Below, piece after piece: positions 26,080 to 33,424 of a DNA stretch of 36,757 bases. A program made the translations under genes and the position numbers. Every line of letters starts with the position of its first letter. The stretch's first letter is position 1. The stretch is from a virus. The notes under the pieces are model-generated. The model was not told the DNA's origin, made no database searches, and was given only the letters and a program-made list of their open reading frames with translations. The stretch lies in the IMG/VR virus record IMGVR_UViG_3300019487_000061, positions 1 to 36,757 of that record. One strand, written 5' to 3'.

Positions 26080-29000
26080 CTACGCGCTGCGTTGACGGAC
26101 GCGCTCGATTGCATCGAGAACCGCTGTCCGCTGCTCCGAAAACGCGCCGCGGGCGGCCTCGACCGCCTGTGCCTCGAAGGAAAGCCGCTCCGCGTTGAGA
26201 CGTTTCCATGCCGCGTCGCGTTGCTCTTCGGTCGCGAGCGCGCGCTCACCCTCCGCCACGGCGGGCGCGATGATGCAGCGGCAGTTGCTAACGACGATGC
26301 CACTGGCGACCATCCACCCCGTCGTGGACTGGAGGTCGTAGACGTGCCCCGAGTAGTCGATCTGCCGGACCTGGACGATCTCATCCAGCGCTACCGCTCC
26401 GGGGTATCCCTCAAGCAGATCGCGGACGAACGCGGCGTCGGCCGTCCCGTTCTGACCCGCCGGTTGCTGAAGCACGGTGTCAAGATCCGCGGTCGTGCCG
26501 AAGCGGAGCGGCTGAAGTGGTCGAGAGCCGACCGTGCGGCTGTCACCCGTCAGTGCAGCGCCGCTTGGCGTGCCAGGCGGGGCCAGCGAGACACCATCGC
26601 CACGAAGCTCGCCCGAGCCCGCACGAACGAGCGACGTCTTCTGGCTCCTGGATTCTTCGAGGACGCGCTCGCCGCTGAGCTCACCCGCCGCGGTCTCTCG
26701 GTCCGACAGCAACTCGCGTGTGGCATCTACAACATCGATGTCGCCTTGCACCGCGACCGCATCGCCGTGGAGCTCGTCGGGTCGCGTGCGTCGCGGCTTC
26801 GACGTTCCTCTGACCGCGAGCGCCTGGAGTACCTGCTCGATCACGGTTGGGTGACGCTGTTCCTCTTGTGCTGCGACAGCGGAGGACGAACCCTCTCCGT
26901 GGACGTTCCCGACATGGGTCAGGACGTGGTCGCCTTCGTTGAGCTTCTGCGCAGGAACGAAACCGTGCGCCGTGGCTACGGGATGGTTCGGTGTCACCCG
27001 CAGGCGATACCCGTGGCGCGTGTTGAGTTCGATGGCCTTGCCCGAATAGCAGGCCCGAACGCCGGCGACGAAAGCGCCTGAGACATAGCTGCCGGGCAGG
27101 ATGCAGTTCGCGTTCTCCGCCGGGTCGTCGCCGAGCGCGCCGGGGTGGGGGCCCCGAGCGCCGGAGGGGCTCACGAAGTCCTGCTCGAGCGGGATGGGCT
27201 CGCTCTCGTCGAGGGCCTGGTGCGTCTCGCGCACCCGCTCGTCGCGCTCGCTGACCCAGTCCTTGAAGGGCATGTTCGCCTGGCGGAGGCCTTCCTGCGT
27301 GCCGAAGCCAGCGGCGGTCACCGTGGACGTCAGGCCGAGCGCGGCCGCGCGCGACGTGAGCGACGGCTCGAAGGCCGCATCGGCTGCGGTTCGCACGGCG
27401 GTCCAGCTCGAGGCCTCGACCCAGCGCTCGCTGACGGCCGTGGCAACCTGATCGCGCGTGGTCTGGTTCACCGCGCGCAGCACGTGGGCGTAGCCGTTCG
27501 CGCGCCAGTCCCGCATGCGCTGGCTCTCGGCGTCCCACGTGGCGCCGGCGCCCTCGGCCGCGAGCTTCCCGAAGTGGTCGGCCACGGCGCCGAGGATCGG
27601 GCGCAGCGCCGTGCGGAGCGTGACCCACGAGAGCGCGGCCGCGATCGCGGCGAGGATGGCGGAGAGCGTGTCGGCGTCGATCTCCGGCTCGTCGCCCTCG
27701 GCCTTCTCTCGGGCGAGCCGCTCGAGGGCGCGCTGCGCAAGCTGTCCGATGTCCAGCCGCGCGGCCTTCTGGTCCCCATCGTCCGGCGGGTCGTCCGGCT
27801 CGTCGCCCGGCTCTGGCTCGGGCTCCACCGGATCCGTGATCCCCTCCATGAGCTCGCGCCGGAACAGCAGCGTGTACGGGACCGCGTAGATTTTCCCCTT
27901 CCCGGCCTCGACGTCGCCGAAGCCCGCGAGCCCGCGCCATTCGTCCTGGGTGAAGGCCCACGGCGCCGCCGCCATCGCCGCGCGCTTCGCCTCGAGGTCC
28001 TCTTCGATCGGCGTCACGTAGTCGAGCAAGAGCGACGGGTCGCCGAAGTCGGCGACGAGCTGCGCCTGCAGCACCGCGCGCCGAACCTCGAGCCGCGGCA
28101 CGAGCACCCAACGCGCGAAGATGTAGGCCGCGGCCGTGATCGTGGCGCGGTTGCTGGTCTCGAGGATCCCGATGATCTCGGGCGGGATGCCCCACGTGTG
28201 CACGATCACGTCGCGCTCGAACCGGCGGAGCTTCTCGAGCTCCATCTCGCGCGCAGTGGCGCCGATCGTCGCGAACTCCAGCTTCTTGCTCACGAAGTAG
28301 AGCCGGAACGCGCGCCAGAAGCCGCGGGTCTGCTGCTCCATGTCGGCCTGCAGCCGTTGCGTCTGGGGCTCGGTGAGGCCATCGGCGAAGACGAGCGTGG
28401 GTTTGATGCCGCCGGTCAGGAAGGTCTGTCGCTCGAGCTTCGCGGCCATGTCGTCGACGTCGATCTCGTCGGCGAGCGCGGAGGCGATGCCCGATGCCGC
28501 GAAGTACGGATCGACGGGGCTCGGCGTCTGGATCCACACGACCTCGGTGGCCGGGAGGGACGCCTCCACGCCGTTCACGCGGAAGGTGAACGCGGGCAAG
28601 TGGTCGGTGGGGAGCGGGCGCTTCGCGCACCAGCGCGGCGGGATCGGATAGAGGGCGATCGGCATGCCCTGGGCGTCGCGCTCCTTCACGAGGATCGACT
28701 CGCCGGCGAGCTCGCCGTACACCTGGGAGAGTTGCGCGACGGTAGGGCCCGGGAAGTGCGGGTTGCCGCCCTCGATCACGTCGAGGGCGGGGTGCGTCGC
28801 GATCTCCTCGGCCTGGCCGGCGCGGGCGATGCGCCGACGTGCGGCCTGGTTCGGCGCGCGGTTCATGCGCCGCGCGAGCGCGACGCCCTCCGGCGCGGAG
28901 CGCCCGACGTCGGTGCGGGCCCCGCGCTGCAGCGTCCACTGCGTCGCGGCCACGCTGTCGGCGATGCGGCTCACCACGGCGCGGACCCACGGTGAGTGCA

Positions 29001-29220
29001 CGTAGGCCTCGACCAGGCGCGCGGGCTCCCGGCTCGCGCGGACGCCGAGGCGGCGCGCGGAAAGGAGCCCGAGCACGGAGCCTCCTCCGGCGCCCACGGT
29101 CCGCGTGGTCAGCTGGGCGTCGCCCATCTGCACCGCGCCGACGTGCTCGCGCAGCAGGTCGGCCATCGTGAGCTGTGCGGCGGCCGAGGTGCGGTTGCCG
29201 CGGCGGCTCCAGAACGCCAT
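26080..29220 (-). CDS. Portal-MuF fusion protein interrupted by an intein
   Basis: A 1046-residue precursor; ATG 29220 overlaps the upstream stop by one base (TGATG), a GTG at 29223 is also possible. Residues about 70-460 are an HK97-type portal (PTVAQLSQVYGELAGESILV, then RFERDVIVHTWGIPPEIIGI). After an acidic linker, residues about 530-705 form a MuF/SPP1 gp7-like domain (MPFKDWVSERDERVRETHQA, EQDFVSPSG, HPGALGDDPAENAN). An intein of 274 residues (706-979) sits exactly in the conserved Asn / Cys-Arg-Cys motif; the MuF end resumes as CRCIIAPA. Spliced product: about 772 residues. Portals form the DNA gate; MuF proteins are minor head proteins. The fusion of the two is known in some phages. 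Confidence 0.9.
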   Translation of the reverse strand: MAFWSRRGNRTSAAAQLTMADLLREHVGAVQMGDAQLTTRTVGAGGGSVLGLLSARRLGVRASREPARLVEAYVHSPWVRAVVSRIADSVAATQWTLQRGARTDVGRSAPEGVALARRMNRAPNQAARRRIARAGQAEEIATHPALDVIEGGNPHFPGPTVAQLSQVYGELAGESILVKERDAQGMPIALYPIPPRWCAKRPLPTDHLPAFTFRVNGVEASLPATEVVWIQTPSPVDPYFAASGIASALADEIDVDDMAAKLERQTFLTGGIKPTLVFADGLTEPQTQRLQADMEQQTRGFWRAFRLYFVSKKLEFATIGATAREMELEKLRRFERDVIVHTWGIPPEIIGILETSNRATITAAAYIFARWVLVPRLEVRRAVLQAQLVADFGDPSLLLDYVTPIEEDLEAKRAAMAAAPWAFTQDEWRGLAGFGDVEAGKGKIYAVPYTLLFRRELMEGITDPVEPEPEPGDEPDDPPDDGDQKAARLDIGQLAQRALERLAREKAEGDEPEIDADTLSAILAAIAAALSWVTLRTALRPILGAVADHFGKLAAEGAGATWDAESQRMRDWRANGYAHVLRAVNQTTRDQVATAVSERWVEASSWTAVRTAADAAFEPSLTSRAAALGLTSTVTAAGFGTQEGLRQANMPFKDWVSERDERVRETHQALDESEPIPLEQDFVSPSGARGPHPGALGDDPAENANCILPGSYVSGAFVAGVRACYSGKAIELNTRHGYRLRVTPNHPVATAHGFVPAQKLNEGDHVLTHVGNVHGEGSSSAVAAQEEQRHPTVIEQVLQALAVRGTSKPRRTRPDELHGDAVAVQGDIDVVDATRELLSDRETAAGELSGERVLEESRSQKTSLVRAGSGELRGDGVSLAPPGTPSGAALTGDSRTVGSRPLQPLRFGTTADLDTVLQQPAGQNGTADAAFVRDLLEGYPGAVALDEIVQVRQIDYSGHVYDLQSTTGWMVASGIVVSNCRCIIAPAVAEGERALATEEQRDAAWKRLNAERLSFEAQAVEAARGAFSEQRTAVLDAIERVRQRSA
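26331..26335 (+). promoter_or_regulatory. Ribosome-binding site of the antisense endonuclease gene
   Basis: GGAGG followed by 8 bases and GTG at 26344. It decides the start: the frame is open to an ATG at 26077, but that lies in the extein and the neighbouring protease start region, outside the mobile unit. On the minus strand this site encodes the Asp-Leu-Gln of intein block F, and the GTG is opposite the His codon in GHVYDL. Start signals and splicing motif therefore share bases. Confidence 0.6.
26344..27081 (+). CDS. Antisense homing-endonuclease gene inside the intein: HTH plus Vsr/EDxHD-like nuclease
   Basis: A 245-residue protein read on the strand opposite to the intein, from GTG 26344 to TGA 27081. 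Residues about 10-57 form a DNA-binding HTH (RYRSGVSLKQIADERGVGRP, then VLTRRLLKHGVKIRGRAEAE). Residues about 103-180 resemble the Vsr/EDxHD or DUF559-type PD-(D/E)xK fold: Glu106 in FFEDAL, QQLACGIYNIDVAL with Asp132, IAVEL with Glu143, then RERLEYLLDHGWVTLFLL. Related proteins I recall have FGG.WH after the Glu; here this is VGSRAS, so a His is missing. The last ~40 residues are antisense to intein blocks A and B and may be only tolerated. Plus codons are exact reverse complements of intein codons. Expected role: cut intein-free MuF alleles to drive homing. Activity is unproven. Confidence 0.72.
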   Translation: MPRVVDLPDLDDLIQRYRSGVSLKQIADERGVGRPVLTRRLLKHGVKIRGRAEAERLKWSRADRAAVTRQCSAAWRARRGQRDTIATKLARARTNERRLLAPGFFEDALAAELTRRGLSVRQQLACGIYNIDVALHRDRIAVELVGSRASRLRRSSDRERLEYLLDHGWVTLFLLCCDSGGRTLSVDVPDMGQDVVAFVELLRRNETVRRGYGMVRCHPQAIPVARVEFDGLARIAGPNAGDESA

Positions 29221-29537
29221 CACGCGCTCCCGATCACGGCGCGGAGGACGCGCTCGAGGTGCTTGTCGGCGCCGGCGTCGGCCACGACCACTATCCGCAC
29301 CATCTTGCCGGGGGCGAGCGCAGGCGGGTCACCGCTCCAGAGCGCATCGGGGATCACGCCGCGGTAGAGGCCCGAGCTCACGTGCGCGATCGGGATCGCG
29401 CTGCCGATTGCGGCGCCGTCTTCGTCGTGGAGCTGCGCGGTCACGGTGGCCGTGGTGACCGCGAGGCCGGCCTCGTCCTTCAGGTCGCGAAGCTCGAGGA
29501 TCGAGTCGCTCTTGTAGGCGAGCTCCTGGCAGGCCAC
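29220..29537 (-). CDS. Hypothetical beta-rich protein, 105 residues
   Basis: Starts with GTG at 29537, immediately after the stop of a 32-codon ORF (TGAGTG), and ends in a TGATG overlap with the portal gene. The pattern ILELRDLKDEAGLAVTTATV, TAQLHDEDGAAIGSAIPIAH and SSGLYRGVIPDALW resembles a small immunoglobulin-like or BppU-type N-terminal fold found in phage proteins that start 'D...L.l.D.dG'. A virion or assembly role is likely from context. No enzymatic motif. Confidence 0.6.
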   Translation of the reverse strand: MACQELAYKSDSILELRDLKDEAGLAVTTATVTAQLHDEDGAAIGSAIPIAHVSSGLYRGVIPDALWSGDPPALAPGKMVRIVVVADAGADKHLERVLRAVIGSA

Positions 29538-32477: not shown

Positions 32478-32581
32478 CCTACCCTTCCCCGCGTGGGCCC
32501 GTGGGTGAGCTCGCGCCGGTCGGTGCTCGTTCACTCGACCCGGCCGGCGCTCTCGCCCGCGGGCCTGCGCACGGAGACACC

Positions 32582-33424
32582 ATGAACGAGACCGAGATCA
32601 ACTGGACCGAGCTCACCTGGAACCCGAACAGCGGATGCGAGGAAGTCACCGCCGGCTGCGCGTTCTGCTACGCGAAGACGCTCGCGGAAAACAAGCGCGG
32701 CACGCCCGCGTTCCCGAACGGCTTCGACTTGACGCTCCGCCCCCACAAGCTCCGCGAGCCCGCGTGCGTCAAGCGGCCCTCGCTGATCTTCACGAACTCC
32801 ATGTCAGACCTCTTCTGGGAGAAGATCCCCGACGACTACCGCGACCGCGTGCTCGAGGCCATGCGCGCCGCGCCGCACCATCGCTACCAGGTTCTCACGA
32901 AGCGGCCGGAGATCGCGGCGCGCTACCTCGCGACGCGCGCGCTCCCCGACTGCGTCTGGCTCGGCGTCACGATCGAGAGCCAGAAGACGGCGCACCGGCT
33001 CGACGTGCTGCGCGACATCCCGGCGCGCGTGCGCTTCGTCTCGGCCGAGCCGCTGCTCTCGCCGCTCGAGCTCGATCTGCGCGGCGTGCACTGGCTGATC
33101 AGCGGCGGTGAATCCGGCGTGCACCTCGCGGCGGGCCACACCCGCGCGCTCGAGACACGAGGCCTGGTGCGGCGCGGCGCGCGCGGCGAACCGTCGTGGG
33201 TGGCGCGCGAGGATCGCATCGACTGGGTCCGCTCGCTCCGCGATCAGTGCGCGGCCGCGGGCGTCGCCTTCTGGCACAAGCAATGGGGCGGGCCGCGACC
33301 GACGAGCGCCGGGCGCATCCTCGACGGCCGAACGTGGGACGAGCTCCCCCGCCACGTCGAAGGCGCCATGCCGGGCGAGCGCTACGTGCACCGCGAGGAG
33401 CGTCAGGCCTCGCTCGCGCTCTGA
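32582..33424 (+). CDS. Phage Gp37/Gp68 (DUF5131) family protein
   Basis: A 280-residue protein, ATG 32582 with GGAG upstream. It opens with INWTELTWNPNSGCEEVTAG followed by CAFCYAKTLAENK, the Cys-rich signature of DUF5131, resembling a radical-SAM iron-sulfur site (C..V..GC..CYA). Further family motifs are LIFTNSMSDLFWEKIPDDY, RYQVLTKRPE, VWLGVTIESQ and WLISGGESG. The biochemical role of the family is not established; similarity to spore photoproduct lyase-like radical SAM proteins has led to suggestions of DNA or nucleotide chemistry. It converges on the minus-strand methyltransferase, sharing 22 bases at the 3' ends. Confidence 0.85.
   Translation: MNETEINWTELTWNPNSGCEEVTAGCAFCYAKTLAENKRGTPAFPNGFDLTLRPHKLREPACVKRPSLIFTNSMSDLFWEKIPDDYRDRVLEAMRAAPHHRYQVLTKRPEIAARYLATRALPDCVWLGVTIESQKTAHRLDVLRDIPARVRFVSAEPLLSPLELDLRGVHWLISGGESGVHLAAGHTRALETRGLVRRGARGEPSWVAREDRIDWVRSLRDQCAAAGVAFWHKQWGGPRPTSAGRILDGRTWDELPRHVEGAMPGERYVHREERQASLAL

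Follow-up and report, generated by a model that had tools for sequence, protein, structure and literature searches.

A phage intein that carries, antisense to its splicing domain, the gene for a predicted homing endonuclease

The stretch of DNA analysed here (the window) comprises 36,757 nucleotides of the IMG/VR virus record IMGVR_UViG_3300019487_000061. At 26080..29223 its minus strand carries a gene, recognised from the open reading frame list and from Pfam and PHROG matches, for a single protein that joins portal to MuF head-morphogenesis domains and amounts, with the intein that interrupts it, to 1047 amino acids. The protein matches Pfam Phage_portal (3.2e-30) and the PHROG portal family (7e-66), with other PHROG matches to head protein and morphogenesis families. 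The intein occupies 822 nt (27105..26284, minus strand) and runs for 274 residues from Cys1 to Asn274, with a cysteine as the first residue of the C-extein; its junctions, marked here by a slash, are ENAN/CILPGSY on the N side and ...VVSN/CRC on the C side. Block B reads TPNH and block F reads GHVYDL, the match to Pfam Intein_splicing stands at 2.2e-9, and the presence of blocks A, B, F and G, Cys1, the TxxH motif, a terminal Asn and C/S/T at +1 satisfies the test for membership of the inteins. The N-terminal splicing half (blocks A and B, residues 1-65; 26911..27105, minus strand) is recognised by an N-block HMM at 1e-27 and the C-terminal half (blocks F and G, residues 235-274; 26284..26403, minus strand) by a C-block HMM at 3e-21. 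Solved inteins are the nearest matches both by profile and by fold; in the AF2 model residues 1-60 and approximately 241-274 form a confident Hint fold with pLDDT >90, residues 80-126 being of medium confidence, and Foldseek gives a probability of ~1.0 to the RadA and RecA inteins, but with E-values of only 2e-3. An endonuclease domain was sought in frame on the sense strand of the window intein and none was found, so that an earlier note on this DNA, made from the letters alone, was right in describing a minus-strand MuF intein with blocks A, B, F and G and no sense-strand endonuclease. In the window and almost all of its relatives the sense frame crosses the intein without a break and is not split into two genes, and it is inferred that the contiguous intein would excise itself. 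Elsewhere in the window, amid structural genes that otherwise lie on the minus strand, a plus-strand gene at 32542-33424 resembles, by eye, the phage Gp37/Gp68 family.

On the plus strand, wholly inside the intein, lies a putative homing-endonuclease gene of 245 codons (26344..27081, stop codon at 27079-27081), identified from its homologues, Pfam matches and AF2 model. It starts with GTG, and a Shine-Dalgarno-like GGAGG (26331..26335, plus strand) is set within the block F codons for VYDL with an 8-nt spacer. The two frames share codon boundaries, antisense position 3 facing sense position 1. The gene begins 20 codons in from the C-end of the intein and covers nearly the whole of it, including the block A/B DNA, and the stretch that encodes the N-terminal splicing half therefore encodes the C-terminus of the antisense endonuclease (HEN) as well. 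Both genes, and the nesting of one within the other, are thus directly observed. No sigma-70-like promoter for the antisense gene was found in this region of the window, and amongst relatives the excess of such promoters over background is only marginal.

The antisense protein matches Pfam REase_MTES_1575 (PF18741) at 5.2e-8, which is under the gathering score of that family, and gives weak matches to DUF559 and to HTH families; HTH families of Pfam also match its relatives. A sequence-profile search yielded 3hrl at 5e-7 and I-Bth0305I at 2e-4. With 71 diverse relatives as input, AF2 predicted a structure of pLDDT 88.6 in which an N-terminal helical/HTH region precedes a PD-(D/E)xK core. The former (residues 1-98; 26344..26637, plus strand) consists of helices with pLDDT of 87-98 and resembles the Hin recombinase HTH with a Z of 6.0. 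The latter, a Vsr-like domain (residues 104-204; 26653..26955, plus strand), is supported by the model, by invariant residues and by structure comparison, VIA-align giving Z 10.9 for Vsr, Z 9.9 for 3hrl (1.6 A over 89 residues) and Z 9.8 for the catalytic domain of I-Bth0305I. The alpha-beta-beta-beta-alpha-beta core typical of Vsr is present in the prediction, as membership of this group demands, and Foldseek recovers the same families, yet with no E-value <0.001. Across the 71 relatives R49, Y129, N130, D132, A141 and E143 are invariant and E106, Q123 and R160 are nearly so, and the catalytic acidic residues E106, D132 and E143, being kept or nearly kept, meet the corresponding test. In the window these positions include E106 at 26659-26661, Y129-N130 at 26728-26733, D132 at 26737-26739, E143 at 26770-26772 and R160 at 26821-26823, all on the plus strand. 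On the basis of the model it can be predicted with confidence that the product is a nuclease like Vsr and I-Bth0305I. The histidines typical of the Vsr family (W-H...H) belong to the family consensus and are missing from the window's own copy, so there is less assurance that this copy is active. The claim that the plus strand carries, within the intein, a 245-codon gene with a GGAGG-GTG start and with HTH and Vsr/EDxHD-like motifs is borne out by the coordinates, by PF18741 and by the model.

The earlier note had seen a single case, but the arrangement is that of a large family, widespread in phages and not confined to MuF. Relatives of the antisense protein occur in phages of Pseudomonas, Gordonia, Mycobacterium, Idiomarinaceae, Aggregatibacter/Haemophilus, Vibrio, Cronobacter and Rhodococcus, as well as in many IMG/VR contigs and in bacterial genomes. 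A sample of 127 sequences was made up of the window and 126 loci retrieved by similarity to the antisense protein alone. All 127 show an open frame on the opposite strand in the shared codon register, a long one in every case but one, and both intein halves were found on the opposite strand in 123, a figure made up of 121 together with L026 and L030, which were recognised once distant domain matches were no longer merged. As for the four exceptions, L080 and L109 are truncated contigs, L059 is probably frameshifted and in L125 only the N half was recognised. The reverse search, with the splicing domain alone as query, found the antisense gene in 80/80 of the nearest matches (the best 80 of 437) and hence no intein of this type without it amongst those 80; they include Salmonella Guernseyvirinae, in which the antisense ORF was missed by pairwise comparison and is plain in translation. 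A profile scan of 594 bacterial genomes gave five strong matches (E <1e-35), every one antisense to intein splicing blocks (four opposite both blocks and one opposite the N block), and no free-standing copy of the gene was found amongst the strong matches; the weak ones were other nucleases and HTH proteins that matched in the nuclease or the HTH part only. The arrangement is also kept in inteins of 34-45% GC. In some members (L004, L005, L007, L009, L017 and others) the antisense protein has two HTH units and the intein is some 45-60 aa longer, at about 316-330 aa, the second antisense HTH domain bringing with it an added linker on the sense strand. In the Rhodococcus phage REQ3 (L010, 2081-3859) and in Prescottella equi (L126/L351) the HTH region is missing from the antisense gene, there is only a weak C block, and the Cys1 position looks to be Ala or Val (HPN/A), perhaps reflecting a degenerate or class-2-like intein.

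The anatomy of the gene is also regular. Of 148 distinct inteins, 82 have a start codon with a Shine-Dalgarno match exactly 60 nt from the C-end of the intein, and 110 have one within 130 nt of it (<=130 nt), against a background of 11% per start codon. The ribosome-binding site falls where block F encodes VY(D/N)L, the Leu codon of which is CTC in 67/106 as against 21% in exteins. The antisense stop codon lies inside the intein in 139/148, mostly in the first few codons after Cys1. With its start fixed near the C-end and its stop near Cys1, the gene is nearly co-extensive with the intein.

Evidence for mobility comes from the Salmonella Guernseyvirinae, in which phage PhiSTP2 carries the element whilst in Shemara and PhiSTP1 the MuF gene is uninterrupted, at ~87% identity to the PhiSTP2 exteins. 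Filled and empty sites differ by exactly 816 bp at a codon boundary (PAHPN/CRS), a polymorphism that is directly observed, and precise presence and absence at a conserved site amongst related hosts meets the test for a mobile intein. No intein-free relative of the window's own extein was found amongst viral contigs, so the empty site has been demonstrated only in the Salmonella phages. Other members interrupt the large subunit of a terminase (L174) or further proteins, where the junctions differ, which indicates that this type of intein has moved between genes. The same type occurs in the phage proteins of L204 and L208, neither of which has a PHROG match, and in the similar L202. Inteins of the enterobacterial group resemble one another more closely than their exteins do, those of Gordonia less closely; both patterns are compatible with exchange between lineages, and double coding also slows change.

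All these observations are very probably to be explained by a mobile intein whose homing endonuclease is encoded by an antisense, co-extensive gene, with cleavage, antisense expression, splicing and homing being inferred. The sense transcript would yield a precursor of the head protein, out of which the contiguous intein would splice itself, and a separate gene on the opposite strand would supply an HTH-bearing PD-(D/E)xK endonuclease of Vsr/EDxHD type. On co-infection with an intein-free relative this enzyme would be expected to cleave the unoccupied site, which in most cases consists of the conserved MuF codons for HPN/CRC, and repair of the break would copy the entire segment so that both genes might move together. 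The suggestion of the earlier note that splicing is encoded on one strand and homing on the other is accordingly supported, with cleavage, antisense transcription and splicing only inferred: homologues of the antisense protein, selection in its frame and a PD-(D/E)xK fold had been named as checks, and homologues proved abundant (the 126 loci of the antisense-protein search), selection is evident in the counts given below and the predicted fold is closest to Vsr, 3hrl and I-Bth0305I.

It remains conceivable, if improbable, that the nuclease is real and has some other role, such as the exclusion or cutting of competing phages, and that the intein provides shelter and not a means of homing. The kinship of its domain to the restriction-type Vsr/DUF559 domains would fit such a role, but full-length relatives were found only inside inteins, the gene is nested in the mobile segment and nearly co-extensive with it, and presence or absence at the insertion site is clean, as it is for homing elements. 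Moreover, the cutting of intein-free relatives is itself a form of competition, and the two roles overlap.

Substitutions were counted in 11 pairs. In exteins they peak at sense position 3, those of the N-extein numbering 689:543:1308 at sense positions 1:2:3, and in the middle of the intein they numbered 641:201:345, with the peak at sense position 1, the antisense wobble position. Likewise, 804 of 1696 changed codons in the N-extein were silent in the sense frame and 160 in the antisense frame, and of the 859 changed codons in the intein middle 464 were silent in antisense as against 139 in sense. The antisense frame is clearly under purifying selection. Constraint from the sense frame is also strong: TTA, CTA and TCA, antisense codons that put stops into the sense frame, were seen 0 times against 664 expected in 139 inteins, although these had been preselected for an unbroken sense frame and stop avoidance is here a measure of the strength of constraint, not an independent test.

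The strand of the nuclease core that bears catalytic residues faces a sense motif that reads ELHGDA in the window (residues 111-116; 26758..26775, minus strand) and DFHGDG in the family, the latter exactly so in 67/148 distinct inteins. When the codons of each relative were compared with expectation from the antisense protein alone, sense residues 112-115 (FHGD) proved to be kept beyond antisense needs (z 5.7, 12.0, 8.6 and 7.6), and the splicing residues in blocks A and B were likewise conserved beyond the antisense requirement. Selection on both strands of the intein is therefore observed, and the DNA of the catalytic strand itself appears to be subject to it; the V/I exchanges seen at HEN 140 leave sense Asp115 unaltered, which indicates selection at the protein level on both strands and not a fixed DNA site. 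It is inferred that DFHGDG belongs to the intein fold. Eighty places bearing the sense motif were examined, 72 with the antisense gene and eight in unrelated proteins, and none was an intein without the antisense gene, but the search pattern fixed two codons and is hence biased. The excess conservation of DFHGDG could be taken to mean that it is the sense strand, or the DNA itself, that is selected in the middle of the intein, conservation of the antisense frame being secondary. This is very unlikely: the excess is limited to a few residues, changes over the whole middle are silent in antisense 3.3x as often as in sense, the variation at HEN 140 does not suggest a fixed DNA site, and sense residues 135-222 (26440..26703, minus strand), a read-through of the N-terminal region of HEN opposite its HTH region, are predicted to be disordered (AF2 pLDDT <50).

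Long antisense ORFs are common in the ORF list of this GC-rich window, and a register in which position 1 faces position 3 favours them where GC is high. An open frame is thus no proof by itself; what decides the matter is the homology, the bias in codon position and the avoidance of stops seen in relatives. That the ORF is a mere by-product of the register without a product is scarcely credible in the face of homology to PF18741 and to solved Vsr-like nucleases, a high-confidence fold, a codon-position reversal confined to the intein middle and absent from exteins in the same register, and an arrangement kept at 34-45% GC with start and Shine-Dalgarno at a fixed place, and a chance ORF is ruled out by the reversal and the silent-change counts. 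The observation of a gene opposite the splicing domain is confirmed, far beyond chance.

A further step beyond the antisense homing gene is that of strand-opposed dual coding, in which the VAVE strand of the nuclease and DFHGDG share base pairs, the ribosome-binding site is held within block F codons, and opposing transcription would time homing against splicing; the case for this is at present evenly poised. If true, it would define a class of intein by strand-opposed dual coding, with two interlocked selected proteins in each mobile segment.

Fractured-gene split inteins with free-standing endonucleases were reportedly described by Dassa and colleagues in 2009. In these too the homing endonuclease is separate from the splicing polypeptide, but its gene lies between the intein halves, whereas the present intein is in one piece and shares its DNA with an endonuclease gene on the opposite strand. 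Canonical bifunctional inteins of LAGLIDADG type such as PI-SceI share the contiguous Hint domain, Cys1, the TxxH block B, the (H or S)N/C junction, a conserved site in the host protein and a site-specific endonuclease encoded within the element, but there the endonuclease is an in-frame domain and here it is a separate opposite-strand gene of Vsr/EDxHD type. The Vsr-like catalytic domain is held in common with the EDxHD homing endonuclease I-Bth0305I (PDB 3r3p). Antisense homing endonuclease genes are known from self-splicing nuclear group I introns, for which antisense expression and cleavage have been demonstrated (PMC9548176); those are RNA elements of nuclear rDNA with the gene in a peripheral loop and a sense strand that does not code for protein, whereas here both strands encode selected proteins. 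ShiLan, in which an out-of-frame HNH gene lies in a non-splicing insertion of a phage methylase gene (PMC11855218), likewise hides a homing endonuclease in another reading frame of a phage gene's in-frame insertion, but on the same strand, of the HNH family and without any splicing domain found. A survey of mycobacteriophage inteins (PMC5050341) mentions neither MuF nor antisense genes. No antisense or opposite-strand endonuclease of an intein was found described in the searchable literature, which did not cover a preprint of 2025 that deals with 'non-canonical architecture' in the inteins of actinobacteriophages; since Gordonia phages carry the present type, that work could include it, and priority is not settled.

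The family is a natural system in which to study how the two strands of a single DNA segment are both selected and what decides between sense splicing and expression of the antisense homing gene, and it allows the question of how a homing gene changes while the splicing domain stays intact to be tested. The existence of Salmonella phages with and without the element makes a mixed-infection test of homing directly possible. The antisense gene is annotated in none of the phage records examined, and such inteins are in consequence read as endonuclease-free, though they probably possess a homing gene. The record of Escherichia phage Snoke, for example, annotates the intein and not the antisense gene. 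The mat_peptide 'intein' in that record (L127, 1131-1760) is 630 nt long, which is shorter than the 273-residue intein given in the record's own note.
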